From contig NZ_JAENWL010000002.1 in the NCBI RefSeq assembly GCF_016650095.1, positions 1 through 49,155 on the forward strand: a DNA stretch of 49,155 nt. The letters run 5' to 3'. Below, piece by piece: positions 8,604 through 32,938 of the stretch. Within the stretch, counting starts at the first letter, position 1. Every line of letters starts with the position of its first letter. The notes beneath the pieces were generated by a model. That model worked only from the letters and a program-made list of their open reading frames with translations. It had not been told where the DNA came from and searched no databases. The position numbers were made by a program, and so were the translations under genes. The DNA is from Clostridium sp. GTDB taxonomy: Bacteria > Bacillota > Clostridia > Clostridiales > Clostridiaceae.

Positions 8604-8618
8604 GTTTTCACCTCTCCA

Positions 8619-16758: not shown

Positions 16759-17757
16759 TTACACCTTTAGAACTTTTCTTATAATATTTTTATTTTTCCG
16801 GAGTAATTTATAAGTTACGGCAAATATAAAACTACTTTTGTTCACATTATGTATTATCTTTTGGTAACCACCAAATTTTCTAAAATATTTTTCTATGTTT
16901 TTTATACTAGAACCCTCAAAATCAAATCCTTTTGAAACTTGCGCAGCAAACTTAATGCTTTCCCATAATAATAGGGTTTGCACACCACTTTTTCTATATA
17001 TAGGGTCACTTCCCCCAATAAGATAATAAGCACATTTTGAGTCATACACTATATAATTAGCTGCTAAAATATTATTATTATCATCTATTCCGAAAAGTAT
17101 CTTCCTGCAGTTTTTTGCTTTCAACTTCTCATCCATATTCCTTAAAAATTCGAAAGAGTATGGCATCTCCATACCTTGCCTTTTAAAGGTTTTTTTATTT
17201 ATCTCATAAAATTGCTCTATGCTTAGGTCTGATACTACTTTTATATTGTTTTTCACTGCTTTATTTATTGAATATTTCACATCATATTGGAAATTCGAAT
17301 ATATTTTATCTAAATCTTGTAAATCTTCAATTACATATGTATAACTAATAGCTGTGCTATATCCTTCCCAAATAAAAGGTAAAAAGTTTGTAAAATTGTA
17401 ACTAAAGTTATAATCAAACAGCCTACAGTGCTGTAGTTTTTCAATAAGTGATACTATTATTGATGTTTCTTTTGATAGCACCGTTGAATACTTAGCTTTA
17501 CTAGAGGATTTAGGTAATAAAATACCTAATTGTGGGGTTAATTTAGGATTTCTATATAACTCACCACGTGTATATGGTAAAGCAATACCGCCAATAAATT
17601 GATTGTTTTCTTCAACAACTAAAATCTTAAACTGAACACAAACAGCTTTTAACCATTGTATTTTACTAAATAAAGTTCCTTGAGGAGACTCATCCACAAA
17701 GTTATCCCATTTATAAAATTCTTCTTCATTGATATATCTGACACTAAAATTAGCCAT
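16759..17757 (-). CDS. FemAB-like GNAT acyltransferase (PF13480 type)
   Basis: A 332-residue cytoplasmic protein of the GNAT/FemAB-like fold found in many exopolysaccharide loci. 'ESPQGTLFSKIQWLKA' at the start is the usual opening, 'DVKYSINKAVKNNIKV' is the basic mid-domain helix, and 'GGSDPIYRKSGVQTLLLWESIKFA' followed by 'FDFEGSSIKNIEKYFRKFGG' is the conserved acyl-CoA or aminoacyl-donor region. It could add an acyl or aminoacyl group to a sugar; the donor is unknown. It ends three bases before the deacetylase-like gene. The start is the ATG of MANFSV, eight bases after GGAG; the track's GTG lies inside the ribosome-binding region. Confidence 0.82.
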   Translation of the reverse strand: MANFSVRYINEEEFYKWDNFVDESPQGTLFSKIQWLKAVCVQFKILVVEENNQFIGGIALPYTRGELYRNPKLTPQLGILLPKSSSKAKYSTVLSKETSIIVSLIEKLQHCRLFDYNFSYNFTNFLPFIWEGYSTAISYTYVIEDLQDLDKIYSNFQYDVKYSINKAVKNNIKVVSDLSIEQFYEINKKTFKRQGMEMPYSFEFLRNMDEKLKAKNCRKILFGIDDNNNILAANYIVYDSKCAYYLIGGSDPIYRKSGVQTLLLWESIKFAAQVSKGFDFEGSSIKNIEKYFRKFGGYQKIIHNVNKSSFIFAVTYKLLRKNKNIIRKVLKV

Positions 17758-17825
17758 TTTATTCACTCCATGTATTATTTTCCATACGGAAATTTAGAAA
17801 TAGTAACTCCAAAACAATACTTCAA

Positions 17826-18950
17826 TTATTTTTTCTTATTATTATCTTGGAGAATGTCTTTATATAAGTTAATTAAATTTATTTTTTCAGTTTCCCAAGA
17901 AAACGTAGTTTCAACTATCTTTCTATTATTTAATCCCATCTGCTTTGTATTCTCAATATTTTTTACTAAATCTTTCACTTTTTCTGCAATTTCTTCAGGT
18001 TTCTTAGGGTTTACAAATATAGCACTTTTCGCAAATACAACCATCCAATAGGGGAAATCAGACATCAAAATTGGAATTCCACATGCCATATATTCAAATG
18101 CTTTTACTGGTGAACTTTTTATATGATTAAGAGTTGGATAGAGTGTACAAAGTCCTAAATCCACACTTTTCATGTATGAATAAACTTCATTTACTGGCTT
18201 AAAACCTAGATATTTTGTATATCTCCATCCTTCTAGTCTCTCACATTCACTTTTATATTCAGGATCATCCCACTTACCTAAAATCAATAATTCTACTTCC
18301 CCATTTAAATAATTAACTGCTTGTATCAATTCCCTTATACCTCTTATTTCAGTAAGTCCTCCTGCATAAAGCATAGTAAATTTTTCGCGTTCTACTGCTA
18401 ACTGCTTGCTTTCATCTATTATAGCCATAGACGGTAAATTCCTTAATAACATAGTTCTTTTATTCATATTAAATTTCTCAACTATATCCATAGTAACGGT
18501 TACCACACCATCAAAATATCTACAAATCCATTTTTCAAAAGCATTAAATAATTTAGATACTATCCTTCTAAAAAAAAGGTTGCCAAGCCAATCTTTATTC
18601 AAAATTTGTGCTGGTACATCCTCATGTACATCATATATTACTTTTTTTCCTAATAATTTTAATCTAAGTCCTAAAAAAAGTATTTCTGGATCATGAAAAT
18701 GATATACCTCAGCGTTTACTTCTTTTGCTTTTTTAAACGCAATTCTATTTTTAAATACAAATCTATATAAACGACCACATTTCTCTGGAAGTGGAATAAT
18801 ATGAACGCCATCTATATCTTCTTCCTTGCCATGAGTGGCTATTAAATATACATCATATCCTTCTGTTGCAAGTGTTTTACATTCTTTGTGAAAAATTCTA
18901 ACATCAGCTGATGAATGAACTGTAGTAATATGACATACTTTTATAGCCAT
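17826..18950 (-). CDS. GT4-family glycosyltransferase
   Basis: A 374-residue glycosyltransferase. 'HITTVHSSADVRIFHKEC' is the start typical of a GT4 subgroup seen in capsule and EPS loci, 'YHFHDPEILFLGL' and 'YDVHEDVP' mark the acceptor domain, and 'TMLYAGGLTEIRGI' opens the donor domain. 'SSPVKAFEYMACGIPILMSDFP' is the E-x7-E region. The start is the ATG of MAIKVCHIT, eight bases after GGAGG; the track start is within that signal. It follows the candidate nonulosonate transferase by 35 bases, and together they may extend the same repeat. Confidence 0.9.
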   Translation of the reverse strand: MAIKVCHITTVHSSADVRIFHKECKTLATEGYDVYLIATHGKEEDIDGVHIIPLPEKCGRLYRFVFKNRIAFKKAKEVNAEVYHFHDPEILFLGLRLKLLGKKVIYDVHEDVPAQILNKDWLGNLFFRRIVSKLFNAFEKWICRYFDGVVTVTMDIVEKFNMNKRTMLLRNLPSMAIIDESKQLAVEREKFTMLYAGGLTEIRGIRELIQAVNYLNGEVELLILGKWDDPEYKSECERLEGWRYTKYLGFKPVNEVYSYMKSVDLGLCTLYPTLNHIKSSPVKAFEYMACGIPILMSDFPYWMVVFAKSAIFVNPKKPEEIAEKVKDLVKNIENTKQMGLNNRKIVETTFSWETEKINLINLYKDILQDNNKKK

Positions 18951-18985
18951 ACTTAAATCCTCCATAATCCTTTAATAAAACCCTA

Positions 18986-20428
18986 CTATTTACTCAAAAA
19001 TAATTTATTAGCATCTTTAATACTCCTAATTAATTTACTTTTAATCATTTCATAGCTATCTATATTAAAGTAATCTTTTCTAAATTTTTCAAATAATATT
19101 TTAGTTTGATTATCATTTATAACATTTATTAATTCTTCAGCGGAATTTACAAAACATACACGATATTCTTTTAACTCTTCTACGTTTGTCCATCCTGAAA
19201 ACTTCACCACAAATGTTGGAATATTACATACCATAGCTTCATAATGACAAGTTGAAAAACAGGACAAATGTACTTTACTTTTTCTCAAACAAGTATAAAT
19301 AGTTCCCGTTGTCTCAAAACTCACTCTAGAATTTGCTATAATATCTTTATATAATTCCTTATATTCCATAATCTCATTTGGATGTAACTTTATTAAAATT
19401 CTAGTATTATAATCCAATTCTAATAATTCTTTTATAAAATAACACCACTGCTTAGAATATACAGCACCTTGAGTCGTAATTAAAAAATCAAATTTCACTT
19501 CTTCTTTACTGGCGATATTTTCCATAAGTTGTTCATATAGATACGGATACCCATATTCAACAATATTTAATTTGATTTTAGGATTTATTTTTATAATAAC
19601 ATCCTTAAAGTGAGCTCCAAAAACACAAAAATAATCTGGTATGGGATCTCTGTCTCTAATTTTATCATTTAAAACATATCCGTAGTGCTTATCGCTTATT
19701 AATCCATGCTGAAATTCAACTACCTTTATATTTAGTATCTTTGCAGCATATATAAAAATAATATGACTAGGACTATAAAAACACTGCATATATAGTACCT
19801 TAGGTTTTACTTTTTTTAATATATTTAGTGCGTATTTATATCCTTTTAGTAGCACTGATGTATTTTCCAATACTATGTGTGTAATAGGTATATCAATCTT
19901 GTATTTTTCTAAAATATAAGATTGAACTTGATCGAATGTGTCTTGTATATGTTTTACTTCACTTTTGTTAATGAAAAGATAATAAAACCTACGATATAGT
20001 AAATTTAATAACGAAAGATTTGATAAGTTATAACTATTCTTAGTATATCTATTAGTCCTGTATCCCTCGCCACTTAGCGTCTCTAGAATACCATAGGACA
20101 AAGAATCATATTTCCCAATATAATCAAATATGTGATCAAACCCGTTGTCCCTTCTAGATGCCGTATCTGATAAACACAAAATGTCTAATTGCTTATATTT
20201 GTTTCCTTTAATATTAATACTTTTTATATATTTTAAAGCTGTAAAATATCTTTTTAGTTTTGATATTACATTTGTCTCGTTACAATTTGGATCTTTTAGT
20301 CTTAATATATCTATAGTTTCAAATATTTTTCTCCTAGATACCCACCAAATATAAAATCCTCTAATCTCTATATCAAACAACTTAAATCGTTCTTCAATAT
20401 CTTTCATAATATCAGTTGTTTGTATCAT
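18986..20428 (-). CDS. GT-B-type glycosyltransferase with HP and Ser/Thr motifs (candidate nonulosonate transferase)
   Basis: A 480-residue soluble protein with no signal peptide. I do not recognise an exact family. 'VLYMQCFYSPSHIIFIYAAK', then 'VEFQHGLISDKHYGY', recalls GT-B capsule enzymes (KpsC/KpsS and CDP-glycerol transferase styles). 'ILIKLHPNE' is an HP motif and 'LSCFSTCHYEAM' a Ser/Thr motif, the order seen in bacterial sialyl- and Kdo-transferases, where they bind the CMP part of the donor. It is the first gene after the legionaminate set, so transfer of a CMP-activated nonulosonate is plausible but unproven. AAGGAG precedes the ATG. Confidence 0.65.
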   Translation of the reverse strand: MIQTTDIMKDIEERFKLFDIEIRGFYIWWVSRRKIFETIDILRLKDPNCNETNVISKLKRYFTALKYIKSINIKGNKYKQLDILCLSDTASRRDNGFDHIFDYIGKYDSLSYGILETLSGEGYRTNRYTKNSYNLSNLSLLNLLYRRFYYLFINKSEVKHIQDTFDQVQSYILEKYKIDIPITHIVLENTSVLLKGYKYALNILKKVKPKVLYMQCFYSPSHIIFIYAAKILNIKVVEFQHGLISDKHYGYVLNDKIRDRDPIPDYFCVFGAHFKDVIIKINPKIKLNIVEYGYPYLYEQLMENIASKEEVKFDFLITTQGAVYSKQWCYFIKELLELDYNTRILIKLHPNEIMEYKELYKDIIANSRVSFETTGTIYTCLRKSKVHLSCFSTCHYEAMVCNIPTFVVKFSGWTNVEELKEYRVCFVNSAEELINVINDNQTKILFEKFRKDYFNIDSYEMIKSKLIRSIKDANKLFLSK

Positions 20429-20530: not shown

Positions 20531-21640
20531 TTATCTCTTAATTTGATTTTCTATAATTACTTTACAGACCTTTTTAATATCTTCTAATTGCAAGCCAACA
20601 GAGCTTGGTAAGTTAATACCTTTTTCATATAATTCCTTTGTAATACTTAAGTCACCATGTCTGTATTCTTTATATGGAGGCATATCATGTATAGGCATAA
20701 AGAAAGTTCTTGCTTCTATTTTTTCTTCATTTAATTTTTGTATAAGAGCATCACGAGTTATGCCATACTCTTCTTCAACTAAAATTGAGTAAAGCCAAAA
20801 ACAATTTTCTACATTCTGTTTTTCTACAGGTAATGTAATTCCTTTAACCTTGCCTAACAATTCATTATAATAAATTGCATTCTCTCTTTTAATCTTTAAA
20901 TAGTCTCCAATATTTTCAAGTTGAGCTACTCCAAAAGCAGCAAGAAGATTTGGCATTCTGAAATTATATCCTACCTCTGGATGGTAGAAAGCTTTATTTT
21001 CAGTAACTACTTTTGCTTGAGTAGATAAGAATTTTGCCCTGGTACCAAACTCTAGATTGTTAGTTACAAGCATTCCACCTGCTCCAGTAGTTATAATTTT
21101 ATTTCCATTAAAGCTAAAACAACCAATATGCCCTATAGTGCCAACCATGTTGCCTTTGTAAATTGATCCTAGTGCTTCGGTTGCATCTTCTATAACATAT
21201 AAATTATGTTTTTGAGCTATTTCCATTACCCTATCCATATCCGCAGGATGACCATAAATATGTACTGGCATTATTGCCTTTGTTTTAGGTGTTATTAATT
21301 CTTCTATCTTTTCTGCATCCATAACAAATGTATCTCTACATACATCTACAAATATAGGGGTTGCACCTACGTATTTTAAAGTGTTTATTGGTGATATAAA
21401 TGTTAAAGATGGAACTATAACTTCATCATCTTTCCCTATTCCTAATGTCAATAACGCTAACTGAAGAGCTGCCGTACCATTATTTGTAACTACTGCACTT
21501 TTACTACCTACATATTCACTAAATCTTTCTTCAAATAAATTAACATAACTTCCTACTGAAGATACCCAATTAGTATCTATGCAGTCTTTAACATATTTCA
21601 ATTCATTACCTCTTATTTCTGGTATACATAATGGTATCAT
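20531..21640 (-). CDS. legC: LegC-like PLP aminotransferase (DegT/DnrJ/EryC1 family)
   Basis: A 369-residue PLP enzyme that would aminate C4 of the 4-keto-6-deoxy-HexNAc nucleotide sugar made by LegB. 'NWVSSVGSYVNLFEERF' is the LegC-type N-terminus, 'TNNGTAALQLAL' and 'IEDATEALGS' bind PLP, and 'FSFNGNKIITTGAGGM' holds the Schiff-base Lys. The sequence looks like the NeuNAc/legionaminate aminotransferases rather than PglE or WbpE, but this distinction needs a phylogeny. It is the only PLP sugar aminotransferase in the window. AGGAGG lies eight bases before the ATG. It follows legB by 39 bases. Confidence 0.88.
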   Translation of the reverse strand: MIPLCIPEIRGNELKYVKDCIDTNWVSSVGSYVNLFEERFSEYVGSKSAVVTNNGTAALQLALLTLGIGKDDEVIVPSLTFISPINTLKYVGATPIFVDVCRDTFVMDAEKIEELITPKTKAIMPVHIYGHPADMDRVMEIAQKHNLYVIEDATEALGSIYKGNMVGTIGHIGCFSFNGNKIITTGAGGMLVTNNLEFGTRAKFLSTQAKVVTENKAFYHPEVGYNFRMPNLLAAFGVAQLENIGDYLKIKRENAIYYNELLGKVKGITLPVEKQNVENCFWLYSILVEEEYGITRDALIQKLNEEKIEARTFFMPIHDMPPYKEYRHGDLSITKELYEKGINLPSSVGLQLEDIKKVCKVIIENQIKR

Positions 21641-21679
21641 AATATAAACCTCCTGCTTTTATTAAACATTATTCGTTTT

Positions 21680-22672
21680 TTAAACGTTATATATGTCTGT
21701 TTTAAAATATTGCATATTATTTTTTATCCACTCAACTGTTGCGCAAAGACCACTATCTATAGTGTAATTTGGCTTCCAACCTGTTAATTCTTTTATTTTG
21801 GTATTATCAGCCCATAATCTGTTAACTTCACTGTTTTCCGGTCTTATTCGCTCATCATCGCAAAGAATCTTTACATCCTTATCTATTATGTTTACTATTT
21901 TTTTAACTGTGTCCCCTATTGTTATCTCATAGTTTGAACCGGCATTTATAACTTCACCAATAGTTCTCTCACTTTCTGCTACCTTTATAAATGCTTCGGC
22001 AGTATCTTTAACAAAATTAAAGTCTCTAGTTGGAGTTAAACTTCCAAGCTTGATTTCTGTTTTTCCTGCGAGTATCTGTGATATTATTGTTGGAATTACA
22101 GCTCTTGCTGATTGTCTTGGTCCATATGTATTAAATGGTCTTATAGTAGCTATAGGCATATTAAAACTTTTATAGTAACTTTCTGCCATCTTGTCTGCTC
22201 CTATTTTTGATGCTGAATATGGCGATTGACCCTGCATTGGATGTTTTTCATCAATTGGTACATAAAGTGCTGTGCCATAAGTTTCAGACGTTGAGGTATG
22301 CACAATTTTTTCAACCCCATATTCTCTACATGCTTCTAAAACATTAGTAGTACCTTCTATATTTGTTCTTACATATGCCATAGGTGATAAATAAGAATAC
22401 GGAATTGCAATAAGTGCCGCTAGATGAAATACTACTTCTTGCCCCTTTAGAATTCTTTTCATCCCATCATACTCTCTTATGTCCCCAGTAACAACTTTAA
22501 TGCTTTCGCGAGTTTTCTTATCGAATGTATCAATCCATCCCCAATTATTAAAAGAATTATATTGAGCGAGGGCTGTAACATCTGCACCAAGTTCCACTAA
22601 TCTTTCCGTTAAATGACTTCCTATAAATCCTTCTGCCCCTGTAATTAAAACTTTTTTGCCTTGCCAATTCAT
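21680..22672 (-). CDS. legB: LegB-like NAD-dependent nucleotide-sugar 4,6-dehydratase
   Basis: A 330-residue extended short-chain dehydrogenase/reductase. 'VLITGAEGFIGSHL' binds NAD, 'STSETYGTALYVPIDE' carries the Thr/Glu active-site region, 'SPYSASKIGADK' holds the catalytic Tyr and Lys, and 'RPFNTYGPRQSARAVIPT' binds the nucleotide. In Campylobacter the GDP-GlcNAc form of this enzyme starts legionaminate synthesis. The ORF track start is 23 codons early and creates a false overlap with ptmE; the ATG of MNWQGKK has GGGAG eight bases before it, leaving a 16-base gap. Confidence 0.9.
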   Translation of the reverse strand: MNWQGKKVLITGAEGFIGSHLTERLVELGADVTALAQYNSFNNWGWIDTFDKKTRESIKVVTGDIREYDGMKRILKGQEVVFHLAALIAIPYSYLSPMAYVRTNIEGTTNVLEACREYGVEKIVHTSTSETYGTALYVPIDEKHPMQGQSPYSASKIGADKMAESYYKSFNMPIATIRPFNTYGPRQSARAVIPTIISQILAGKTEIKLGSLTPTRDFNFVKDTAEAFIKVAESERTIGEVINAGSNYEITIGDTVKKIVNIIDKDVKILCDDERIRPENSEVNRLWADNTKIKELTGWKPNYTIDSGLCATVEWIKNNMQYFKTDIYNV

Positions 22673-22688
22673 TGCATCTACTCCCTTT

Positions 22689-23744
22689 TTATACTTTAAA
22701 AAACTTGTGAATATCCCTGTTGGCCTTTGTATAATCTTCAATTTGTCCTATATCCTTCCAATATTCTGTTATCTCATATATACCAGGTTTATCTTCATTA
22801 TTAATTACATCTTCTATTAAATCAGTCATATTATAAACTTCGCCTTGCTGTATATATTTTATAACTTCAGGATTAAGAGCATATACTCCGCCATTTATAT
22901 GAAATTTATATGTAGGCTTTTCTTCTAAAGACTCTATAATCATATTATCAGTAACTAATACACCATAAGGAACATTAATTTCATAATTTCTAACGCCAAC
23001 AGTTACATTAAACTTATTTTCAATGTGATGATTTAAAAATTTATCAAAATCAATTCCAGTTAGTATATCTCCATTTATAACAATAAAAGGTTGATTTAAT
23101 TTTTCGTTTGCTAAGGCTATTGAGCCTGCTGTACCCAGTCTTTTAGTTTCCTTAATGTATTCTATATTTACGCCGAATTCTATTCCAGTTTTAAAATATT
23201 CCTCTATTATTTCTCCTTTATAATTAAGAGAAATAATAAAGTTTCTAAAACCATATTCTTTAAATTGTTCAATTATAAGCTCCAATATAGGTTTATCCCC
23301 AATTGTTAGCATAGGTTTAGGTACTGTTTCGGTTAAGGGCCTTAATCTAGTTCCCAGTCCACCCGCTAAAATAAAGATAATGTTATCCTTTTTATCATAA
23401 GAAATTATATCATCTAGAAAATATAAATCTATAAGTTTTTTATTTTTATCAATAACAGGTACTTGTCTTATCTTATTGCTTAGCATATACTCTTTCGCTT
23501 TCTTTTTACTATACTCTTCTGTAACAAATTTAAATCTTTTAAAGTATGTGCTCTCAATACCATCATATATACTTAGCCCTTTAAGAATAGCCCGTCTAAT
23601 ATCACCATCAGTAATAGTTCCCACGAGTTCATTGTTTTCATTTACAACTAGTGCTCCTCCGGTTAAATTTTTATTTATAACCACCATTGCTTCTTTTATT
23701 GTAGAATTTTCTCCTATACAATAATTATCAATTGGAAATTTCAT
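22689..23744 (-). CDS. ptmE: PtmE-like CBS-domain sugar-1-phosphate nucleotidyltransferase
   Basis: A 351-residue fusion. Residues about 1-115 form two CBS repeats ('VGTITDGDIRRAIL' and 'RQVPVIDKNKKLIDLYFL'), which in other proteins bind adenosyl ligands. Residues about 120-351 form a nucleotidyltransferase with 'LAGGLGTRLRPLTETVPKPML' style activation loop and 'INGDILTGIDF'. The Campylobacter homologue PtmE makes GDP-glucosamine for legionaminic acid; here the base is inferred. CBS regulation would let energy state gate nonulosonate synthesis. It starts four bases after legH; GAAGGTG precedes the ATG. Confidence 0.87.
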   Translation of the reverse strand: MKFPIDNYCIGENSTIKEAMVVINKNLTGGALVVNENNELVGTITDGDIRRAILKGLSIYDGIESTYFKRFKFVTEEYSKKKAKEYMLSNKIRQVPVIDKNKKLIDLYFLDDIISYDKKDNIIFILAGGLGTRLRPLTETVPKPMLTIGDKPILELIIEQFKEYGFRNFIISLNYKGEIIEEYFKTGIEFGVNIEYIKETKRLGTAGSIALANEKLNQPFIVINGDILTGIDFDKFLNHHIENKFNVTVGVRNYEINVPYGVLVTDNMIIESLEEKPTYKFHINGGVYALNPEVIKYIQQGEVYNMTDLIEDVINNEDKPGIYEITEYWKDIGQIEDYTKANRDIHKFFKV

Positions 23745-23748
23745 AATG

Positions 23749-24396
23749 TCACCTTCGCTTTATAATTTTTGATGGAATTCCTACAGCAACTACATTATCT
23801 ACTATATTTTCAATAACCACAGCTCCAGCCCCTATAATTACGTTATTGCCTATGTGTACTGATTGAATTATAGAGCTTCCCATACCTACATGGGTATCAT
23901 GGCCTACAATCACCCCTCCAGCTATACAAGCCTTAGGTGATATATGGGTATTCCTTTGCACTTTGCAATCATGCTCGATTACAGCACCAGTGTTTACTAT
24001 ACAATTTTCACCTATGAGCGCTCCAGGATTAATTATTGCTCCCTGCATTACACAAGTCCCTTCTGCAATAAAGGCATAAGGCGAAACCATAGCATTCTTA
24101 TGAATAAGAACTGGTGAATTAAAGCCTATAGTCTTTAATTTATTATATAGCTTATCACGAGCCAAAATATTTTGGAGTGCCCCAACACATACAAAGGCGT
24201 TCTTTACTCCTGTGTTATATAATTCTTTTAAAATACTATCATCACCTATAATAGGAATATCTAATACAAACTCTTTTTCACTAGGGTCATAACTTTTATC
24301 TGTTATACCCACAATCTCATATTTAGAATTACTTTTTATTATATCTATAATAACCTTGCAATGACCACCCGCACCTACAAGAACAATTTTTTCCAT
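23749..24396 (-). CDS. legH: LegH/NeuD/PglD-family sugar O/N-acyltransferase
   Basis: A 215-residue two-part protein. 'LVGAGGHCKVIIDII' is the N-terminal nucleotide-sugar-binding Rossmann-like domain of the PglD/NeuD family, and the rest is a left-handed beta-helix of hexapeptide repeats ending 'IGAGAVVIENIVDNVVAVGIPSKIIKRR'. Family members acetylate the 4-amino group of a UDP/GDP-4-amino sugar. 'NTGAVIEHDCKVQ' carries the catalytic His-type position. Its place inside the Leg run fits LegH, giving the diacetamido-trideoxy sugar used by LegG. NeuD-type O-acetylation of the finished nonulosonate is an alternative. GGGGTGAG precedes the ATG. Confidence 0.85.
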   Translation of the reverse strand: MEKIVLVGAGGHCKVIIDIIKSNSKYEIVGITDKSYDPSEKEFVLDIPIIGDDSILKELYNTGVKNAFVCVGALQNILARDKLYNKLKTIGFNSPVLIHKNAMVSPYAFIAEGTCVMQGAIINPGALIGENCIVNTGAVIEHDCKVQRNTHISPKACIAGGVIVGHDTHVGMGSSIIQSVHIGNNVIIGAGAVVIENIVDNVVAVGIPSKIIKRR

Positions 24397-24451
24397 AATC
24401 TCACCCCAACTTTAAATTTTCAGCTCTCAATTCTCAAATTTAAACTATTAA

Positions 24452-25600
24452 CTAGTAAGTTATTTTCTTTTGTATAAGTTCCCTATCTATCAATACATTG
24501 CTTAAAATTTCCGCTATTTTCCCACTGGCATTGCCATCCCCATAAGGATTTGTGCAGTTTTCTAATTGTTTTTTAAAACTCTCGTCATCTATTGCCTTAT
24601 TAATACCGATCTTTACAGCTTCTTTTCCATAAGGCACATCAATTATATTACATGCTCTTAGTCTTCCTTCTTGCCTTGATCCTATGTTTACTACAGGTAG
24701 TTTAAAGCTAGGTGCTTCAATTATACCTGAGGATGAATTTCCTATCATTACCGCGGCTATTTCTAAAAAGCTTAGGTACTCTACTTGACTTAAATTTTTA
24801 AATACCTTTAAGAATGGGTATTTAGCTCTATATTCTTCAATAATCCTTATAATTTCACGTCCCCCATTATCACTGTTAGGATATGAAACTATAGTTTGAT
24901 ACCCAAGTTCTACAACCGCATCTAGTGTTTCTCTTATTTGCCATCCCACCATATCACGCTCTGTAGTTACTGGATGCTGAGTTAGTAGAAATATCTTATC
25001 ATCTTTTAAATTGAATCTTTTGAGCATTTCAATTCTTGTTAAATAGTTTGTTCTCTTAATGTAATCAAGACCTGGTGCTCCTACTACAAAAATATTTTCT
25101 CCCTTCTCACCTAATTTAATAATTCTTTTCATACTATCCTCATTGGCTGGAAAATGAATATGAGAAAGCTTAGTTATAGCGTGTCTTACAGATTCATCTA
25201 CTGTTCCAGTTACTTCCCCTCCATGAATATGAGCTACAGGAATATTCATGTGAATAGCTGCGGTTGCTGCCGCTAGCATTTCTCCTCTATCTCCTAATAT
25301 TAACAAAATATCTGGCTTAATTCGATCAAAACACTGGGCCATGCTTATAATTGAAAGTCCTATAGATTTAGCCATAGCAGTCCCTGTATCAGAAGCTAAT
25401 ATAGTTTCAAACTTATCTGCTATATCAAATCCATCTCTTTCTATTTCATTTATAGTCATTCCATATTCAGGACATAAATGCATTCCACAGACAATAAGTT
25501 TAAGATCCAATGATTCATGTTTTTCAATTTCTTTAAGAACATGATAAAATATGCCATAATCCGCTCTTGTACCTGTTATTACTGCTATTTTTCTTTTCAT
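24452..25600 (-). CDS. legG: LegG/NeuC-like hydrolysing nucleotide-sugar 2-epimerase
   Basis: A 382-residue enzyme of the hydrolysing 2-epimerase group, which releases the free 2-epimerised hexose for condensation with phosphoenolpyruvate. 'AVITGTRADYGIFYHVL' is the NeuC-type start, different from the 'GARPQFIK' of WecB. 'ILGDRGEMLAAATAA', 'HIHGGEVTGTVDESVRHAITKL' and 'NSSSGIIEAPSF' are the remaining blocks. The track start is 12 codons early; AGGAGG directly serves the ATG of MKRKIAV. The 90-base gap to legI holds two short palindromes. Leg versus NeuAc specificity rests on the presence of legB and legC. Confidence 0.9.
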   Translation of the reverse strand: MKRKIAVITGTRADYGIFYHVLKEIEKHESLDLKLIVCGMHLCPEYGMTINEIERDGFDIADKFETILASDTGTAMAKSIGLSIISMAQCFDRIKPDILLILGDRGEMLAAATAAIHMNIPVAHIHGGEVTGTVDESVRHAITKLSHIHFPANEDSMKRIIKLGEKGENIFVVGAPGLDYIKRTNYLTRIEMLKRFNLKDDKIFLLTQHPVTTERDMVGWQIRETLDAVVELGYQTIVSYPNSDNGGREIIRIIEEYRAKYPFLKVFKNLSQVEYLSFLEIAAVMIGNSSSGIIEAPSFKLPVVNIGSRQEGRLRACNIIDVPYGKEAVKIGINKAIDDESFKKQLENCTNPYGDGNASGKIAEILSNVLIDRELIQKKITY

Positions 25601-25671
25601 ATTTATCCTCCTACTAGCGCTCCTCGGGAATAGCAATTAACAATTGTTATTTTCCTATTCTATTTAAACGT

Positions 25672-25691
25672 AAAATGATTTAAATCATTTT
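25672..25691. repeat. Perfect 20-bp AT palindrome at the end of legI
   Basis: AAAATGATTT is followed directly by AAATCATTTT, a perfect palindrome that touches the legI stop codon. Reading the minus strand it ends in TTTT. It may slow or partly stop transcription between legI and legG, or may be chance in AT-rich DNA. Confidence 0.4.
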
Positions 25692-26734
25692 TATTCCAGC
25701 ATATTTAAGGCTATTTGCTCATCCATCTTTATATCTCTGTTAGTTTTTTTACCAATAACATCCATATAATATTTGGGTAAAAGCCCGTTTCCTGGTCTTT
25801 TGTAATCCAAGTCCATTAAGTTTATACTCTCCCCTGCTTTTATATATCTAGCAGCTACTATACTTTTTCTTGCTGCCTTCATAGTATCTATTTCACTAGC
25901 ATCATACCTCTTGATTCCAGTTCCAAGTGCCATTTCTACATTTCTAATTGCTACAACCATCTCTTTTAATTCTAGAGGACAGAGAGATGCTTTATGATCC
26001 GGGCCTTCCATATTTTTATCGATAGTAAAATGCTTTTCAATTATATTTCCTCCCATAGCCACTGCAGCTATGGGTATAGTTATCCCCTCAGTGTGATCAG
26101 AATATCCGGACACAGTTTTAAAAGCATTTTTTATAGTATTCATGGCATTTAAATTAACGCTATGTAATTTAGCTGGATAATTCGAAGTACAGTGAAGCAC
26201 CGCTACTTTTTTATTTCCTAAAGCATAAATTGCATTGATTCCTTCTTCAATTTCTGCAAGTGTCGCCATACCAGAAGATAAAATTATAGGTTTGTTAAAT
26301 AATGCTATATGTTCTAAAAAGGGAATGTTAGTTAAATCTCCTGAACTTATTTTAAAAGCCTCTATGCCTATAGATGATAAAAAATTAGCACTTTCAAAAT
26401 CAAAAGGGGTAGATAAAAACATAATTCCCATATGTCTACAATATTCTTGTATTTCTATGAAGTCTCCCTGTGATAGTTCTAGTTTCTTTAACATATTAAA
26501 CTGAGAGGAAGTATGGCCTATGTTATCCTTTTGATAATCAGCCATTTCTGCATATCCAGTAACTAATTTTTCAGTAATAAATGTTTGAAATTTTATGGCA
26601 TCAACTCCAGCAAATACAGCATTTTCAACTAGCTTTTTCGCTATGTTTATGTCTCCATTATGGTTAACTCCAGCCTCGGCTATAATAAAGGTAGGATTTC
26701 CAACACCTATAACTTTATTCCCTATCTTAAACAT
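25691..26734 (-). CDS. legI: LegI/NeuB-family nonulosonate (legionaminic-type) synthase
   Basis: A 347-residue enzyme that condenses a free 2-acetamido (or diacetamido) mannose-type sugar with phosphoenolpyruvate. 'IIAEAGVNHNGDINIAKKLV' is the NeuB opening, 'DAIKFQTF', 'STPFDFESANFL', 'KISSGDLTNIPFL' and 'GYSDHTEGI' complete the TIM barrel, and residues about 285-347 form an antifreeze-like SAF domain that caps the active site. NeuB, LegI and PseI cannot be separated with certainty by eye, but the LegB/LegC/LegG context favours legionaminate. The first 8 bases overlap the end of legF, indicating translational coupling. AAAGGAG precedes the ATG. Confidence 0.92.
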   Translation of the reverse strand: MFKIGNKVIGVGNPTFIIAEAGVNHNGDINIAKKLVENAVFAGVDAIKFQTFITEKLVTGYAEMADYQKDNIGHTSSQFNMLKKLELSQGDFIEIQEYCRHMGIMFLSTPFDFESANFLSSIGIEAFKISSGDLTNIPFLEHIALFNKPIILSSGMATLAEIEEGINAIYALGNKKVAVLHCTSNYPAKLHSVNLNAMNTIKNAFKTVSGYSDHTEGITIPIAAVAMGGNIIEKHFTIDKNMEGPDHKASLCPLELKEMVVAIRNVEMALGTGIKRYDASEIDTMKAARKSIVAARYIKAGESINLMDLDYKRPGNGLLPKYYMDVIGKKTNRDIKMDEQIALNMLE

Positions 26735-27431
26735 GCTTACTCTCCTTTATTATCAGTTCTACAAGTCTTGCATCGAGCATTGTATCAATGTCTATTGAGC
26801 TTTCCTTGTCCATTACATAAGGAATTGTATTTTCATCAACAAACTTTTTTTTCTGTACTATCATGTCACTTGAATTAATATATAACGCACCATTAAATAT
26901 GTAAAAAGCAGGTAAGTCTTGGCGCCGAAGATTTGTGCCCTCAAAGCTTATGACTTCCTTTAACTTTTCGTTTTCTATACTCCTCATAAGTACAGGATTT
27001 TCATCAACTTCGCATACACTTACTAAGGAAGATTTATTTGATTCAATAAGTTTTTCTATTGCTTTATCAAGATGTTCAACTGTTCTTAATGGAGAGGTTG
27101 GCTGTAATAATATTACATAGTCAAAACTTATATTCTTATTTTTATAAAAATCAATTGTATGCATCACAACATCTATAGATTTCACATTATCTTTTGATAA
27201 TTCTGCTGGTCTTAAAAAAGGAACCTTAGCACCACTCTGCTGTGCTATAACCTTTATGATATCACTATCCGTTGATACCATTATTTCATCTATATATTTT
27301 GATTTTTTTGCCGCTTCTATTGTATACGCTATAAGTGGTTTACCACATATAGGCATGATATTCTTATTCGGTATCCCCTTTGAACCACCTCTTGCTGGAA
27401 TAATAGCAAGAAACTTTTTATTTTTAAACAT
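26727..27431 (-). CDS. legF: LegF/NeuA-family CMP-nonulosonate cytidylyltransferase
   Basis: A 234-residue enzyme that activates the nonulosonate with CTP. 'AIIPARGGSKGIPNKNI' is the CTP-binding loop, 'PLIAYTIEAAKKS', 'VSTDSDIIKVIAQQSGA' and 'LLQPTSPLRT' are classic CMP-sugar synthetase motifs, and 'DIDTMLDARLVE' near the C-terminus carries metal-binding Asp residues. It is the first gene of the Leg run and has its own likely promoter. AAAGGGG precedes the ATG. The enzyme product, CMP-legionaminate or similar, would be the donor for a transferase downstream. Confidence 0.92.
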   Translation of the reverse strand: MFKNKKFLAIIPARGGSKGIPNKNIMPICGKPLIAYTIEAAKKSKYIDEIMVSTDSDIIKVIAQQSGAKVPFLRPAELSKDNVKSIDVVMHTIDFYKNKNISFDYVILLQPTSPLRTVEHLDKAIEKLIESNKSSLVSVCEVDENPVLMRSIENEKLKEVISFEGTNLRRQDLPAFYIFNGALYINSSDMIVQKKKFVDENTIPYVMDKESSIDIDTMLDARLVELIIKESKHV

Positions 27432-27478: not shown

Positions 27479-27506
27479 ATTATAATTACATCCTTCATTT
27501 CGTAAA
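27479..27506 (-). promoter_or_regulatory. Likely sigma-A promoter of the legionaminate operon
   Basis: Minus strand TTTACG, a 16-base spacer, then a perfect TATAAT, about 45 bases before the legF ATG. The -35 box overlaps the base of the adjacent hairpin, so the two signals may interact. Confidence 0.6.
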
Positions 27507-27561
27507 AACAATAAAAACTATGTCCAGGTTGGTCAACTTAGGCATAGTTTTTATTGTTTTA
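27506..27561. terminator. Strong symmetrical hairpin between the acetyltransferase and legF genes
   Basis: Arms AAAACAATAAAAACTATG and CATAGTTTTTATTGTTTT form a perfect 18-bp stem around a 20-base loop that itself holds GTTG/CAAC. On either strand the 3' arm is T-rich, so it could terminate both ways. It most likely ends transcription from the acetyltransferase gene and separates the uronate-branch genes from the Leg genes. Confidence 0.6.
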
Positions 27562-27627
27562 CTTTCAGTTATTGTCATACCAGCTATAAGTCTATACCTC
27601 TATGAGAATTCTCAATATATATTCTTT

Positions 27628-28368
27628 TTATTGATTTTTAAGCAATTGATCCTCTGGTACATCTCTCATGACTTTAGCTGGATTACCAACTACAATTTTA
27701 CCTATTTCAACATTTTTTGTAACTACGCTACCTGCTGCTACAAAACCATCTTCATGTATAGTAATACCTGGCAGAATAACAGCTCCTGCTCCAATTCTTC
27801 CACCTTTTTTTATAGTTACACCTTTAAATTTACCAAACCTCTCTTTAGAGCGGGCTGCATAATTATCATTTGAGGTTGTAACACAAGGCGCAATAAATAC
27901 ATAATCCTCAACTTCTGAGTAAGCTGTTAAATACACATTAGTTTGTATTTTACAATTAGAACCAACCTTGCAGAAATTTTCAATAGTTGTTCCACGACCA
28001 ATAATTGTTTTTGAGCCTACGGTTACATTTTCCCTTATTACAGCAGTATCAGCTATAAGTGTTTTTTCTCCAATTGTGCATCCACAATAAATAATCACGC
28101 CTGCTCCGATAAGACAACCTTCACTTATTTGAGCAGGAAGCAATTCTTCTTCGCTTTTGAATATACTATTTACGGATCTCATAGGCATCTTACCTATTAC
28201 AGTATTATCATCTATTCGAACATCGCTTGCTATAACAGTTCCCGTATGTATAACTACATTACTACCTAAAACACAATTATCACCTATTATTACTTCATCC
28301 TCTATAACCACAAAATGTCCCATTGATACATTCTTACCCAATTTACTTTTTTCCGAAACATACTTCAT
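27628..28368 (-). CDS. Hexapeptide-repeat (LbH) acetyltransferase, WbpD-like role possible
   Basis: A 246-residue left-handed beta-helix protein made almost wholly of hexapeptide repeats ('IGDNCVLGSNVVIHTG', 'IGAGVIIYCGCTIGEKT', 'IGAGAVILPGITIHEDGF'). The loop 'APCVTTSNDNYAARSKERFGKFKG' is characteristic of nucleotide-sugar N-acetyltransferases found next to Gfo/Idh/MocA dehydrogenases; the Asn-Asp-Asn region is near the catalytic site. It is longer than WbpD, with extra N-terminal turns. In context it may acetylate a 3-amino uronate. AAAGGGG precedes the ATG, and the gene starts 34 bases after the dehydrogenase gene. Confidence 0.83.
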   Translation of the reverse strand: MKYVSEKSKLGKNVSMGHFVVIEDEVIIGDNCVLGSNVVIHTGTVIASDVRIDDNTVIGKMPMRSVNSIFKSEEELLPAQISEGCLIGAGVIIYCGCTIGEKTLIADTAVIRENVTVGSKTIIGRGTTIENFCKVGSNCKIQTNVYLTAYSEVEDYVFIAPCVTTSNDNYAARSKERFGKFKGVTIKKGGRIGAGAVILPGITIHEDGFVAAGSVVTKNVEIGKIVVGNPAKVMRDVPEDQLLKNQ

Positions 28369-28402
28369 GAAAACAACCCCTTTTCATATAATAATTCTAA
28401 AA

Positions 28403-29491
28403 TTATTTTTTCATTTCGAGTGTTGAAAAATCACCCATTGGGAATTTAACTGGAAGCCCTGTAAGTCTTGATTTATAAGCTGCAAGTATAATAGACATCC
28501 CTTTTTTACCTTCTTCTCCATTTATGAGCGGTTGCCTATTCGTATTTATAGCATCTACCATGTCTTTATATAATGGTGTATGTCCGAATCCATATACTGA
28601 ATCTGGATCTCCCTTTTTTTCTTTTAATATCTCTTCCTCAGTATCCACATTATCTGCGAATCTCCAAGTTTCTATGGAATTAACTGCAAGACCTCCTATA
28701 GAAACAGTCCCTGTTTCACCAAATATGCTTAATGTTTCTTCTAAGTTCTTAGGATATACACAAGCAGAACCTTCAACTATGCCTATAGCTCCATTTTTAA
28801 ATCTTATAATAATTGCTCCAAAATCCTCTGCTTCTATATCTCGAAGGAAAGTACCACACTGAGCATAAACAGTATCTATTTCTCCACCAAGCATCCATTG
28901 TAATAAATCAATATTGTGAATACATTGATTCATTAAAGTTCCACCATCTAATTTCCATGTTCCTCTCCAAGGTGCCTGGGTGTAGTATCCCATATTTCTA
29001 TTCCAAAGGATTCTTGCTGTACCACTAACTAATTTTCCAAACCTATTTGCATCAACTGCAGTTCGCAATTTTTGTATTGGTTCATTAAATCTGTTTTGAT
29101 GACTAACACAAAGCTTTACATTATTTTTCCTTGCACATTCAATCATTCTATCTGCATCACGTGTAGACAAAGCCATTGGTTTTTCAACAAGTACATGTTT
29201 TCCACTATTCATGCAATATATAGCTATTTCTGGATGATATCCACTTTCAGTAGATATAGTAACCATATCAATATCAGCGTTTTCAATCATTTCCTTATAA
29301 TCTGTATATACTTTTACATCTAAATTTTCGCCTATTGCTTTTATGTACTCATCTCTTTTAGCTATAGCATTAGCTTCTACCACATCACAAACCGCAGAAA
29401 GCTGGATTTCCATTTTATTTTGAGTTATAGCCTCTACATGTTTGTAAGATATTCTTCCGCATCCTATTATTGCAACATTTAGTTTTTTCAT
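28403..29491 (-). CDS. Gfo/Idh/MocA-family sugar dehydrogenase (WbpB/WlbA-like role possible)
   Basis: A 362-residue NAD(P)-dependent dehydrogenase. 'NVAIIGCGRISYKHVEAI' is the Rossmann start, 'GKHVLVEKPMALS' holds the conserved Glu-Lys-Pro motif, and 'DGGTLMNQCIHNIDLLQWMLG' contains the catalytic His region. WbpB/WlbA-type members oxidise C3 of UDP-GlcNAcA. The position between a UDP-HexNAc 6-dehydrogenase and an acetyltransferase fits such a role, but a 3-aminotransferase is not adjacent. AAGGAGG precedes the ATG. An inverted repeat lies just upstream. Confidence 0.85.
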   Translation of the reverse strand: MKKLNVAIIGCGRISYKHVEAITQNKMEIQLSAVCDVVEANAIAKRDEYIKAIGENLDVKVYTDYKEMIENADIDMVTISTESGYHPEIAIYCMNSGKHVLVEKPMALSTRDADRMIECARKNNVKLCVSHQNRFNEPIQKLRTAVDANRFGKLVSGTARILWNRNMGYYTQAPWRGTWKLDGGTLMNQCIHNIDLLQWMLGGEIDTVYAQCGTFLRDIEAEDFGAIIIRFKNGAIGIVEGSACVYPKNLEETLSIFGETGTVSIGGLAVNSIETWRFADNVDTEEEILKEKKGDPDSVYGFGHTPLYKDMVDAINTNRQPLINGEEGKKGMSIILAAYKSRLTGLPVKFPMGDFSTLEMKK

Positions 29492-29520
29492 TTAAATTCC
29501 TCCTTGTAATATCTCCTAAA

Positions 29521-29571
29521 ATTTTGGAATGCAACATTATAAAATAATTTACAATGTTTGCATGCCAAAAT
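29521..29571. repeat. Imperfect inverted repeat upstream of the Gfo/Idh/MocA gene
   Basis: ATTTTGGAATGCAACATT pairs with AATGTTTGCATGCCAAAAT across a 14-base AT loop, with one mismatch and one bulge. On the minus strand the stem is followed by TTTTAGGAG, close to the ribosome binding site. It may be an attenuator, an mRNA processing site or an operator in the 104-base gap. Confidence 0.55.
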
Positions 29572-29595
29572 GTTCTGTTCCTGCATCACTATTTC

Positions 29596-30912
29596 TTAAA
29601 GTTTGTTTATTTTTTCTCTATTATTTACAACATGCTTTGTAGCATTTCTTGTGTCATATAATAAACTAGCTTCTTCTACAATTCTTTCATAGTCATAATC
29701 AGTATGATCTGTTGTTATTATTACTATATCTGCATTCTCTATTTCACTTTCCCAGTTTACAGATATGTATTCTTTTCCCTTGTGGATAAATTTCGGTATA
29801 AATGGGTCATTCATAATTATGTCAGCACCATTTTTTTCTAATTGATCTATAACCTTTAGTGTTGGTGATTCTCTCATATCATCTATATCTTTTTTATAAG
29901 CCGCACCCATAAGAAGAACTTTTGCTCCGTTTAGTGCCTTTTTCTGACCATTTAAAAGCTTCATAACATTTTCAAGCACAAATTCAGGCATATAATCGTT
30001 AATTATACCTGAAGCTTCTATTAATTTTGTATGATAATCATACTCTTTTGCTTTCCACTCTAGATAAAATGGATCAAGTGGTATACAATGTCCTCCAAGC
30101 CCTGGTCCTGGATAGAATGGCATAAATCCATAAGGTTTAGTTTTAGCTGCATCAATAACTTCCCAAATATCTATATTCATCCTTTTACATAAAATAGCCA
30201 TTTCATTAGCTAGTGCAATATTTACATTTCTAAAAGTATTTTCAAGAATTTTTTCCATTTCAGCTACTGCCGGAGAAGATACTTCCATTATATCTCCCTC
30301 AAGCACACTTCTATAGAGCATACCCGCTACTTCTGTGCAGTCTTTAGTGCATCCACCAACTACTTTGGGAGTATTTTTTGTGTTAAATTGCTTATTGCCT
30401 GGATCAATTCTCTCTGGAGAAAACGCTAAGAAAAAGTCTACTCCACATTTTAAACCTGATTCCTCAAGTATTGGTTTTAGTACTTCTTCAGTTGTTCCAG
30501 GGTATGTCGTGCTTTCGAGTACTACGAGCATTCCCCTATGTAAATACTTTGCTACACTTCTAGTTGAATCAACTACATATGATAAATCGGGTTGCTTGTA
30601 TAAATCTAGTGGTGTAGGTACAGCAATACACACTGTATCAACATCCTTAACAAAGCTAAAATCCGTAGTTGCTTTAAGTTTTCCCTCTCTTACTAAGCTT
30701 TTTAAATCTGAATCTACAATATCACCAATATAATTACGTCCTTCATTCACCATTTTAACTTTCTGATCTTGAACATCAAAACCTATTACTTCATATCCTA
30801 CTTTAGCCTTCTCTACAGCTAATGGTAATCCTACATAACCCAAGCCTACTACACCAAGTTTAGCTGTTTTATTTTTTAATTTTAATAATAACTCGTCTTT
30901 TAATTGAAACAT
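29596..30912 (-). CDS. UDP-N-acetylhexosamine 6-dehydrogenase (WbpA/WecC family)
   Basis: A 438-residue NAD-dependent UDP-sugar 6-dehydrogenase. 'LGVVGLGYVGLPLAVEKAKVG' binds NAD, 'AVPTPLDLYKQPDLSYV' and 'LESTTYPGTTEEVL' are N-domain motifs, 'ENTFRNVNIALANEMA' includes the active-site Lys/Asn region equivalents, and 'GPGLGGHCIPLDPFYL' holds the catalytic Cys. The fit is to WbpA-type (UDP-GlcNAc) enzymes rather than UDP-glucose dehydrogenases. Product would be UDP-GlcNAcA, feeding the next two genes. AGGAGG precedes the ATG. A candidate promoter lies in the 133-base gap upstream. Confidence 0.9.
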   Translation of the reverse strand: MFQLKDELLLKLKNKTAKLGVVGLGYVGLPLAVEKAKVGYEVIGFDVQDQKVKMVNEGRNYIGDIVDSDLKSLVREGKLKATTDFSFVKDVDTVCIAVPTPLDLYKQPDLSYVVDSTRSVAKYLHRGMLVVLESTTYPGTTEEVLKPILEESGLKCGVDFFLAFSPERIDPGNKQFNTKNTPKVVGGCTKDCTEVAGMLYRSVLEGDIMEVSSPAVAEMEKILENTFRNVNIALANEMAILCKRMNIDIWEVIDAAKTKPYGFMPFYPGPGLGGHCIPLDPFYLEWKAKEYDYHTKLIEASGIINDYMPEFVLENVMKLLNGQKKALNGAKVLLMGAAYKKDIDDMRESPTLKVIDQLEKNGADIIMNDPFIPKFIHKGKEYISVNWESEIENADIVIITTDHTDYDYERIVEEASLLYDTRNATKHVVNNREKINKL

Positions 30913-30998
30913 TTTGTTACCTCCTATAACCTTAAAGGTCTAATTTAATACGTTAATTTATATTATTTTGCAATGTAGGAAAAAAAATCATTAAAAAT

Positions 30999-31026
30999 AT
31001 TTTACATCAAGTCCAATTAACTACAA
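30999..31026 (-). promoter_or_regulatory. Candidate sigma-A promoter before the UDP-HexNAc dehydrogenase gene
   Basis: Minus strand TTGTAG, 16 bases, TAAAAT, about 85 bases before the ATG and just after the stop of the membrane dehydratase gene. The boxes are fair rather than perfect. Confidence 0.4.
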
Positions 31027-31045
31027 TCGCAAAGTGTTAACTATC

Positions 31046-32887
31046 TTATTCTCTCTTTCTTATATAAGTAGGAACTTTTTCTTCCATTAAAGTAAGTATT
31101 GCTTCTTTATCTCTACTCACTACGTTCCTAAACTCTTTAATAGATTCCTCAATAAAATCTATATCATTCCCCATTGGCTTTTCAACAAAAATTTTATTGT
31201 GAGAAGTTGACGTTAAGGCAATCTCATCCATTAGAAGTTCTTCATAAAGTTTTTCTCCTGGTCTGAGCCCTGTAAATTCAATTTTTATGTCTACATCTGG
31301 TTCAAGGCCCGAAAGAGTTATTAAGTCTATGGCCAAGTCGAATATTTTTACTGGTTTGCCCATATCTAAAACAAATATTTCCCCACCTTTTGCCATACCT
31401 CCAGCTTGAATAACCAATTGCGCGGCTTCCGGTATTGTCATGAAAAATCTATTTATATCGGGGTGCATAACTGTTACCGGTCCTCCATGGGCTATCTGTT
31501 TTTTAAATAATGGTATTACTGAACCATTACTTCCTAGAACATTACCAAATCTCACAGCCACATACTGAGTGTCACTGATTGTATCAAAAGCCTGAATTAT
31601 AAGTTCACAAAATCTCTTTGTAGCACCCATTATGTTTGTAGGATTTACTGCTTTATCTGTACTGATTTGAACAAATCTTTTAACGCCAGCTTCATGACTA
31701 CATTTTACCACATTATAAGTTCCTAATACATTATTTTTAATGGCCTCAGCTGGATTATTTTCCATAAGTGGCACATGTTTATGAGCTGCTGCATGAAATA
31801 TTACGTCTGGTTTATTAGTTTTAAAAATTTCTTTTAATCTATCGAAATCTCTGACAGATGCGATAATAAACTCTTTATTTAACTCCGGAAATTCATAATT
31901 AAGCTCCATTTGTAAGTCATAGGCGTTATTTTCGTAAATGTCTACGACTATTAGTTTTTTAGGGTGAAATTTTGCAATTTGCCTGCATAGTTCAGACCCT
32001 ATAGAACCGCCACCACCTGTAACTAATATTGTTTTTTCTTTAATATATTTATCAATCTCTTCATTGCACAATTTAATTGGCTCTCTTCCTAAAAGATCCT
32101 CAATATTTACATCACGAAGCTCACTAATGTTTACTTTTTCGTCTACAATTTCATAAATACCTGGGATTGTTTTCAACTTACATTTAGTCTGTTTACAAAT
32201 ATTTAGTATTTCTGTTTTAGTTTTAAAATCTGCAGAAGGCATGGTTATAATTATTTCCTCAACAGAATTTTCCTCACAAATTGAAATTATCTTATCCCTA
32301 CCACCTAATACTCTAATATCATTGATTATTTTGCCCTTTTTAGATTCATCATCATCAATTAAGCCTACAATATAGTAGTTCAGTTCACTATGCTTTTTAA
32401 TTTCCTTTACTAAAAGTGCACCTGCATCACCAGCACCCACAATAAGAATGTTTAAATTTTTGTCACAATGCTTTTTTTCACCCTTATTTTGCTCAGTTAT
32501 TCTATATATGATTCTAATTCCGCCTAAGGTAATTACACATAGAATCCAAAATATAATATGAACAGTAAACGGGAATCTATAATAATCACTTTTAAATAAA
32601 ATATAACTAACCAAATAGCTATAAATTACAAATGCTATATTTGAGAATGATATGGAATACACTATAGAAAATAATTCTTCTATGGAAGCATATTTCCACA
32701 TATTTCGATATAATTTAAAAATTTTATTAAAACCTATTATTAAAATTATCACTGGAATAATTGAAAGTTTAAAAAATTGTATGTCTTTACTCGGGATATT
32801 AAAATCAAATCTTAATAATAAAGCAATATATAATGATGCCAAAATACAAACAATATCAACCACAAAGACTCTTTTATCAGTTTTCAT
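31046..32887 (-). CDS. Membrane-bound nucleotide-sugar 4,6-dehydratase (CapD/PglF/WbpM family)
   Basis: A 613-residue protein. Four N-terminal helices are followed by a CoA-binding-like Rossmann domain ('ILIVGAGDAGALLVKEI', about residue 150) and a dehydratase domain ('VTGGGGSIGSELCRQI', about residue 290). 'STDKAVNPTNIMGATKR' shows Met where classical SDRs have Tyr, as in PglF/WbpM-type UDP-GlcNAc 4,6-dehydratases. It would make a 4-keto-6-deoxy-HexNAc for QuiNAc, FucNAc or bacillosamine-type sugars; no dedicated partner reductase is in the window. The start is the ATG of MKTDKR, after GAGGAAG. It is the first gene of the main glycan run. Confidence 0.92.
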   Translation of the reverse strand: MKTDKRVFVVDIVCILASLYIALLLRFDFNIPSKDIQFFKLSIIPVIILIIGFNKIFKLYRNMWKYASIEELFSIVYSISFSNIAFVIYSYLVSYILFKSDYYRFPFTVHIIFWILCVITLGGIRIIYRITEQNKGEKKHCDKNLNILIVGAGDAGALLVKEIKKHSELNYYIVGLIDDDESKKGKIINDIRVLGGRDKIISICEENSVEEIIITMPSADFKTKTEILNICKQTKCKLKTIPGIYEIVDEKVNISELRDVNIEDLLGREPIKLCNEEIDKYIKEKTILVTGGGGSIGSELCRQIAKFHPKKLIVVDIYENNAYDLQMELNYEFPELNKEFIIASVRDFDRLKEIFKTNKPDVIFHAAAHKHVPLMENNPAEAIKNNVLGTYNVVKCSHEAGVKRFVQISTDKAVNPTNIMGATKRFCELIIQAFDTISDTQYVAVRFGNVLGSNGSVIPLFKKQIAHGGPVTVMHPDINRFFMTIPEAAQLVIQAGGMAKGGEIFVLDMGKPVKIFDLAIDLITLSGLEPDVDIKIEFTGLRPGEKLYEELLMDEIALTSTSHNKIFVEKPMGNDIDFIEESIKEFRNVVSRDKEAILTLMEEKVPTYIRKRE

Positions 32888-32938
32888 CAAGTTCACTTCC
32901 TCTATCTAATATTAAATCCTTTGCAACTCTCCTTAATC

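Follow-up and report, generated by a model that had tools for sequence, protein, structure and literature searches.

Which sugar is made by the seven nonulosonate (NulO) genes of a Clostridium genome, on which surface structure would it be displayed, and by which enzyme would it be attached? The genes lie in a window of 49,155 nucleotides, the whole stretch of DNA that was analysed, which is contig C203 (NZ_JAENWL010000002.1) of a draft genome (3.53 Mb, 448 contigs, 94% complete) of a cold-loving Clostridium related to C. psychrophilum; by LegI, the closest named relative is Clostridium psychrophilum DSM 14207 (76%). They form a complete cassette for the synthesis and activation of a legionaminate (Leg)-type sugar, which resembles sialic acid, and this cassette is real and far beyond chance. 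The reading favoured here, with a probability of about 0.72, is that the cassette makes cytidine monophosphate (CMP)-legionaminic acid or an N-acyl variant of it, that this sugar is built into a Wzy-type surface polysaccharide, and that it is transferred by GT480, a protein encoded directly after LegC. Such a pathway, including its use for polysaccharide, is already known in other bacteria; new, as far as the searched literature shows, would be Leg on a clostridial surface polysaccharide and an unclassified transferase family. The pathway is of a known kind, and the transferase family is a useful lead: genes for NulO synthesis are common, but few enzymes attaching NulO to polysaccharides are known outside the flagellar Maf proteins, the sialyltransferases and the Tannerella enzymes. 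Should the linkage of GT480 to NulO synthase (NeuB-family) genes reflect function, a directly assayable candidate transferase family can be named and, if the reading is true, legionaminate would serve clostridia on surface polysaccharide, at least one congener reserving pseudaminate (Pse) for its flagella.

The cassette occupies positions 20531-27431 of the minus strand as seven contiguous open reading frames, transcribed in the order LegF-LegI-LegG-LegH-PtmE-LegB-LegC and all found where an earlier note on this DNA had placed them. The 8 bp overlap of LegF and LegI described in that note is exact (26727-26734), and the following gaps, which it had called mostly short, measure 90, 55, 4, 16 and 39 bp in transcription order. 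Two starts were corrected: the TTG at 22741 listed for LegB is too early, the family match beginning just past the ATG at 22672, and LegG probably starts at the ATG at 25600 and not at the listed TTG at 25636. Schoenhofen is said to have described in 2009 a Campylobacter jejuni CMP-legionaminate pathway consisting of PtmE, LegB, LegC, LegH, LegG, LegI and LegF. The same enzyme families are found here, and the claim that the full route named in Campylobacter is present holds from the PtmE step onward; homologs of PtmF, PtmA and PtmG/H were not seen beside the Clostridium cassette. Unlike its C. jejuni counterpart, this cassette is tied to a Wzy-type polysaccharide locus and not to flagellar glycosylation.

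In the proposed mechanism, the PtmE-like enzyme would convert glucosamine 1-phosphate (GlcN-1-P) to guanosine diphosphate (GDP)-GlcN(Ac), and LegB and LegC would yield a 4-amino-4,6-dideoxy sugar that LegH would N-acylate. LegG would epimerise C2 and take off the nucleotide, LegI would join the product with phosphoenolpyruvate (PEP), and LegF would give CMP-Leg, from which GT480 would move Leg onto a lipid-linked repeat unit. This unit would be started by Bac_transf, after which a MurJ/Wzx-type flippase would flip it for export and a Wzy-like enzyme would polymerise it. The PtmE label comes from the CBS plus NTP_transferase architecture and from synteny, and we infer GDP-linked intermediates because the PtmE-like gene adjoins LegB. 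Bacillus subtilis is not known to have such a PtmE/LegB pair. The sps legionaminate pathway of that Gram-positive organism, which serves the spore crust and so puts Leg on a surface glycan rather than on flagella, differs in using precursors linked to uridine diphosphate (UDP), which are made not by LegB but by SpsM, a dehydratase resembling PglF (PMC7439481).

That the product is of the legionaminate type, as the earlier note proposed, is supported by curated models for LegB and LegC and by the LegI tree. LegB and LegC exceed the cut-offs of their models, with the PseB model far under its own and the PseC and PseI models also below theirs (Table 1); LegB and LegC, and not PseB and PseC, are thus the pair present, and LegH, LegG and LegF belong to the same operon, as in the C. 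jejuni-type pathway. The best NCBIfam model for LegF is that of PseF, which stays below its cut-off, and no Leg-specific CMP-synthetase model of NCBIfam scored on this protein, which is named by its position. In the K-I-x-S-(G/F) motif, whose last position is a proposed marker of Neu/Leg versus Pse enzymes (PMC7371886), LegI has Gly and the solved PseI has Phe. In a FastTree phylogeny of 109 sequences, the LegI of the window falls in a 20-member clade (support only 0.665, with 1.0 for an inner clade of 16), every member of which comes from a LegB-bearing locus. It is separated from nmNeuB, with a support of 0.908, and also from the group of PseI sequences, so that the phylogenetic comparison called for in the earlier note places it with neither, the references being one N-acetylneuraminate (NeuAc) synthase (nmNeuB) and one solved PseI, with C. 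jejuni LegI not included. The N-acyl groups cannot be read from the sequence, as had been anticipated. A second NeuB-family match in the genome, on C431, was rejected as a second pathway, being a 3-deoxy-D-arabino-heptulosonate 7-phosphate synthase by sequence.

Concerning the destination of the sugar, the neighbours of the cassette are the polymer-assembly genes that the earlier note had recognised, namely those for a Bac_transf priming transferase, WecG, WecB, several GT4 enzymes, two Wzy_C proteins and two MurJ-type flippases, as in a Wzx/Wzy-type locus, and no flagellin or Maf is encoded in the window. In about ten congeners the cassette lies at one chromosomal polysaccharide locus, with GalU, UDP-sugar dehydrogenase, Gfo/Idh and hexapeptide acyltransferase before the Leg genes, polymer genes of varying content after them, and a far end (WecG/Bac_transf/nitroreductase) that is conserved in the congeners where it was read. 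Conserved flanks around a variable middle, as here, are what a variable locus for surface polysaccharide looks like. No Maf was found in this 94%-complete genome, nor in the cassette carriers G001, G006, G011 and G015, the last of which (2 contigs, 99% complete) also yielded no flagellin; by the comparison used, no glycosyltransferase was found near the flagellin genes of G001 and G006. In C. botulinum and C. butyricum, islands for flagellar glycosylation are known that contain Leg/Pse genes and Maf (PMC11339370, PMC13317340), and the congener G002 has an island of this kind, where flagellin and Maf are joined by a NeuB gene of the PseI type (L160, C3:151500-171400), separate from the locus that holds its GT480-type Leg and Wzy cluster (L045, L157). 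The earlier preference for a surface polysaccharide over flagella is now supported by the flagellin-free G015, the absence of Maf and the separate Pse locus of G002. Its own argument, that flagellar genes are absent nearby, is true of the window but weak, because the flagellin genes of this draft lie on other, mostly short contigs; the transferase candidate directly downstream of LegC had been missed.

GT480 has 480 residues, and shares a GT-B fold and an HP motif with the bacterial sialyltransferases of families GT38, GT52 and GT80 (PMC2169525), but, unlike these, it matches no Pfam family and has no significant PDB sequence match. Against the NCBIfam BFO_1060 family glycosyltransferase it scores 41.8 bits, over its C-terminal part only and under the cut-off of 200, and the literature, searched for BFO_1060 as an established NulO transferase, yielded no paper with that name. 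The case for its role comes from genomic linkage. A blind search with the single sequence in 391 genomes of the class, of which 69 have true NeuB-family genes, gave five other homologs, four of them less than 7 kb from such a gene and the fifth 23 kb away but adjoining a CMP-synthetase-like gene. The control glycosyltransferase, Bac_transf, lay within 10 kb of NeuB in 0 of 74 cases in the NeuB-bearing genomes of this set (Fisher p 3e-6), a value to be taken as indicative, as the control was the best-scoring Bac_transf part and priming transferases may sit further from sugar genes. A second blind search used a nine-member profile, which included members first found in NulO loci and may therefore favour NulO-linked clades; in 399 genomes of the phylum it gave fourteen further loci, 11 with NeuB within 10 kb, the other three being two on contigs of 7-10 kb and one weak match. 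A single genus accounts for three of the fourteen, and orthology is doubtful for the weakest matches (37-56 bits). Altogether, 15 of the 19 other relatives have a NeuB-family gene within 10 kb and one more is beside a CMP-synthetase; some directly adjoin either gene, and the linkage is seen repeatedly, in many families and with different types of NulO. Against a profile rich in LegI, several of the neighbouring NulO genes score lower, and these may be of the PseI type; Leg specificity is therefore improbable for the family, if indeed it is one. GT480 is thus probably the CMP-nonulosonate transferase that attaches the sugar, a donor assignment that follows genomic linkage because the fold search leaves the donor undecided. 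The chances are about even that it represents an undescribed GT-B family without a Pfam model, which would move Leg- and Pse-type nonulosonates from CMP donors to surface polysaccharides throughout Bacillota and, judging from related loci, also in Flavobacteria and Spirochaetes.

Several observations weigh against this picture and are best considered together with the alternatives. The FlaA1/PglF-type dehydratase encoded upstream could, by analogy with B. subtilis, feed a UDP route (PMC7439481). LegI has Ser at the position of nmNeuB residue 184, where a study of few sequences reported Tyr for Leg enzymes (PMC7371886); as a pathway marker this position was dropped, since it does not discriminate in the present sequence set. 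A different nonulosonate, such as NeuAc or 4-acyl NeuAc, Pse, or an epimer like 8-epi-legionaminate, is an unlikely product: the LegG and LegI models are common to the NeuC and NeuB families, and family membership does not reveal the stereochemistry of isomers, the C8 configuration included, but the scores of LegB and LegC over cut-off and of PseB, PseC and PseI under it, the Gly at the PseI-diagnostic position and the place of LegI in the tree all speak against such a product, the 8-epimer excepted. Equally improbable is a main role of the sugar on flagellin, as in C. botulinum, with its transferase encoded elsewhere and the polymer neighbours coincidental. This use of Leg is known in clostridia (PMC11339370), the genome has flagellin genes, and in more distant relatives flagellin and Maf-like genes share loci with such cassettes; in C. 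psychrophilum itself, a case the earlier note had not seen, a LegF-LegI-LegG-LegH-LegB-LegC set adjoins Maf, without polymer genes (L044, L066). Yet the genome gave no Maf match (non-Maf flagellin transferases of the FlmG type were not searched for), G015 retains the cassette although it is flagellin-free, and the cassette is fixed in the polysaccharide locus in the congeners described above. Related Leg cassettes within the genus may serve flagella or polysaccharide and, given the C. psychrophilum case, the polysaccharide role is no genus-wide rule; the good support for it at the present locus does not extend to all Leg cassettes in Clostridium.

The assignment of GT480 meets a more substantial, though still doubtful, alternative, in which it would be a repeat-unit glycosyltransferase with another donor, such as cytidine diphosphate-glycerol or a nucleoside diphosphate (NDP)-sugar, merely co-inherited with the NulO genes. 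Its AlphaFold2 model is a confident GT-B (predicted local distance difference test, pLDDT, 82; predicted template modelling score 0.84), and the Foldseek matches are general GT-B enzymes including TagF, plus NDP-sugar 2-epimerases and NDP-sugar transferases. TagF uses a cytidine-nucleotide donor. The conserved motifs of GT480 (QHG, LHP with only Pro invariant, and ST..E) include QHG, HP and ST elements found across that superfamily, and the D/E-D/E-G motif of known bacterial sialyltransferases is absent. Most of the other congeners fill the slot behind LegC with a Wzx-type flippase and a different, related protein of 570-600 residues, detected by the GT480 profile with E about 1e-18 to 1e-27; a fold search with its model (pLDDT 66) returned GT-B only, with many NDP-sugar epimerases among the matches. 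Against this alternative, however, stands the recurrence of the NeuB linkage across families and NulO types, and the slot protein itself bears, besides QHG and HST, the EG (EGDR) and HP motifs, which are parts of the sialyltransferase functional motifs D/E-D/E-G and HP (PMC2169525), at a spacing of about 133-135 residues, which is similar to the 125 seen in the meningococcal enzyme. By description, and not by sequence comparison, GT480 is also similar in size to the Tannerella forsythia proteins GtfS and TFUB4_00887 (442-445 residues), knockout-supported NulO transferases with D/E-D/E-G and HP motifs (PMC6388019), which are likewise encoded beside NulO synthesis genes and act on a surface glycan, the role predicted for GT480; they differ from it in carrying D/E-D/E-G.

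Table 1. Features of the locus in the window. NCBIfam (TIGR) models were scored in bits against curated cut-offs; names are predictions from sequence.
Feature	Positions	Strand	Basis
LegF, CMP-nonulosonate synthetase	26727..27431	-	PF02348 101 bits; PseF model TIGR03584 187.8 (cut-off 205.7)
LegI, nonulosonate synthase (PEP condensation)	25691..26734	-	TIGR03569 473.3 (NeuB/NnaB cut-off 399.65); PseI model 287.4 (340.25); tree; motif residue
LegG, hydrolysing NDP-sugar 2-epimerase	24452..25600	-	TIGR03568 468.9 (235.9); best solved relatives 5xvs/5zlr, NeuC-type diacetylbacillosamine 2-epimerase
LegH, NeuD/PglD-type N-acyltransferase	23749..24396	-	TIGR03570 207.1 (160.8); PglD_N + Hexapep
PtmE-like CBS + nucleotidyltransferase, proposed guanosine triphosphate:GlcN-1-P guanylyltransferase	22689..23744	-	PF00571 + PF00483; adjoins LegB in congeners
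LegB, NDP-GlcNAc 4,6-dehydratase	21680..22672	-	TIGR04180 524.4 (475); PseB model 71.3 (407.75)
LegC, pyridoxal phosphate-dependent 4-aminotransferase	20531..21640	-	TIGR04181 432.1 (420); PseC model 269.7 (423.5)
GT480, unclassified GT-B protein, predicted CMP-legionaminate transferase	18986..20428	-	NulO-linked homologs; GT-B model; motifs
GT4 glycosyltransferase	17826..18965	-	homolog 78% identical, same position, congener G002
FemAB/GNAT-like acyltransferase, candidate glycan modifier	16759..17766	-	PF13480 40 bits; synteny
DUF7033 protein, deacetylase-like by context	15361..16755	-	PF23019 49 bits
MurJ/MviN-type flippase	13822..15360	-	PF03023 267 bits
Extracellular solute-binding-like protein	12420..13772	-	PF01547 57 bits; position conserved
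Wzy_C O-antigen ligase/polymerase-like protein	10942..12384	-	PF04932 58 bits
Remaining polymer locus: GT4, WecB, GT4, Wzy, Bac_transf priming transferase, WecG, GT4, second MurJ-type flippase	1838..10870	-	locus end conserved in congeners
Upstream sugar genes: hexapeptide acyltransferase (HexP), Gfo/Idh dehydrogenase, UDP-sugar 6-dehydrogenase, FlaA1/PglF-type dehydratase (31046-32896)	27628..32896	-	syntenic in congeners
Strong A+T-rich hairpin between HexP and LegF, U-rich 3' arm, terminator-like	27490..27575	-	fold z-score -5.9

The FemAB/GNAT-like acyltransferase, which might modify the sugar with an amino-acid or acyl group, has homologs of 39-40% between HexP and LegF in seven congeners (L037-L043), so that it occurs in two positions with the Leg cassette. 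The hairpin of the window sits where these congeners have their FemAB-like gene; no other copy was found in the genome, a second match being its own inverted arm, and this single copy rules against a mobile-element scar. A promoter and terminator scan gave no excess over shuffles. Next to the hairpin, the UDP-sugar 6-dehydrogenase, Gfo/Idh and hexapeptide acyltransferase genes (27628-30912) resemble WbpA/WbpB/WbpD, with a WbpE-like aminotransferase missing at this site; in C. ganghwense and C. tepidiprofundi (L068, L069) one lies between PglF and the dehydrogenase. The idea that LegC is an obligatory stand-in for it was dropped, as three other full-length DegT aminotransferases are encoded elsewhere in the genome.

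Within the polymer cluster, the solute-binding-like protein is membrane-anchored and has no ATP-binding cassette partner there, and its place in the cluster is unchanged in G002 (73%) and in C. tepidiprofundi (55%). The two MurJ-type flippases (the second at 1838-3403) and the two Wzy_C proteins (the second at 6089-7351) are arranged as if two polymer systems stood side by side. Elsewhere among the congeners, NeuB-like fragments with in-frame stops (G012, C1 near 397223-398206; G016, C3:81413-81739) suggest decay of additional NulO genes.

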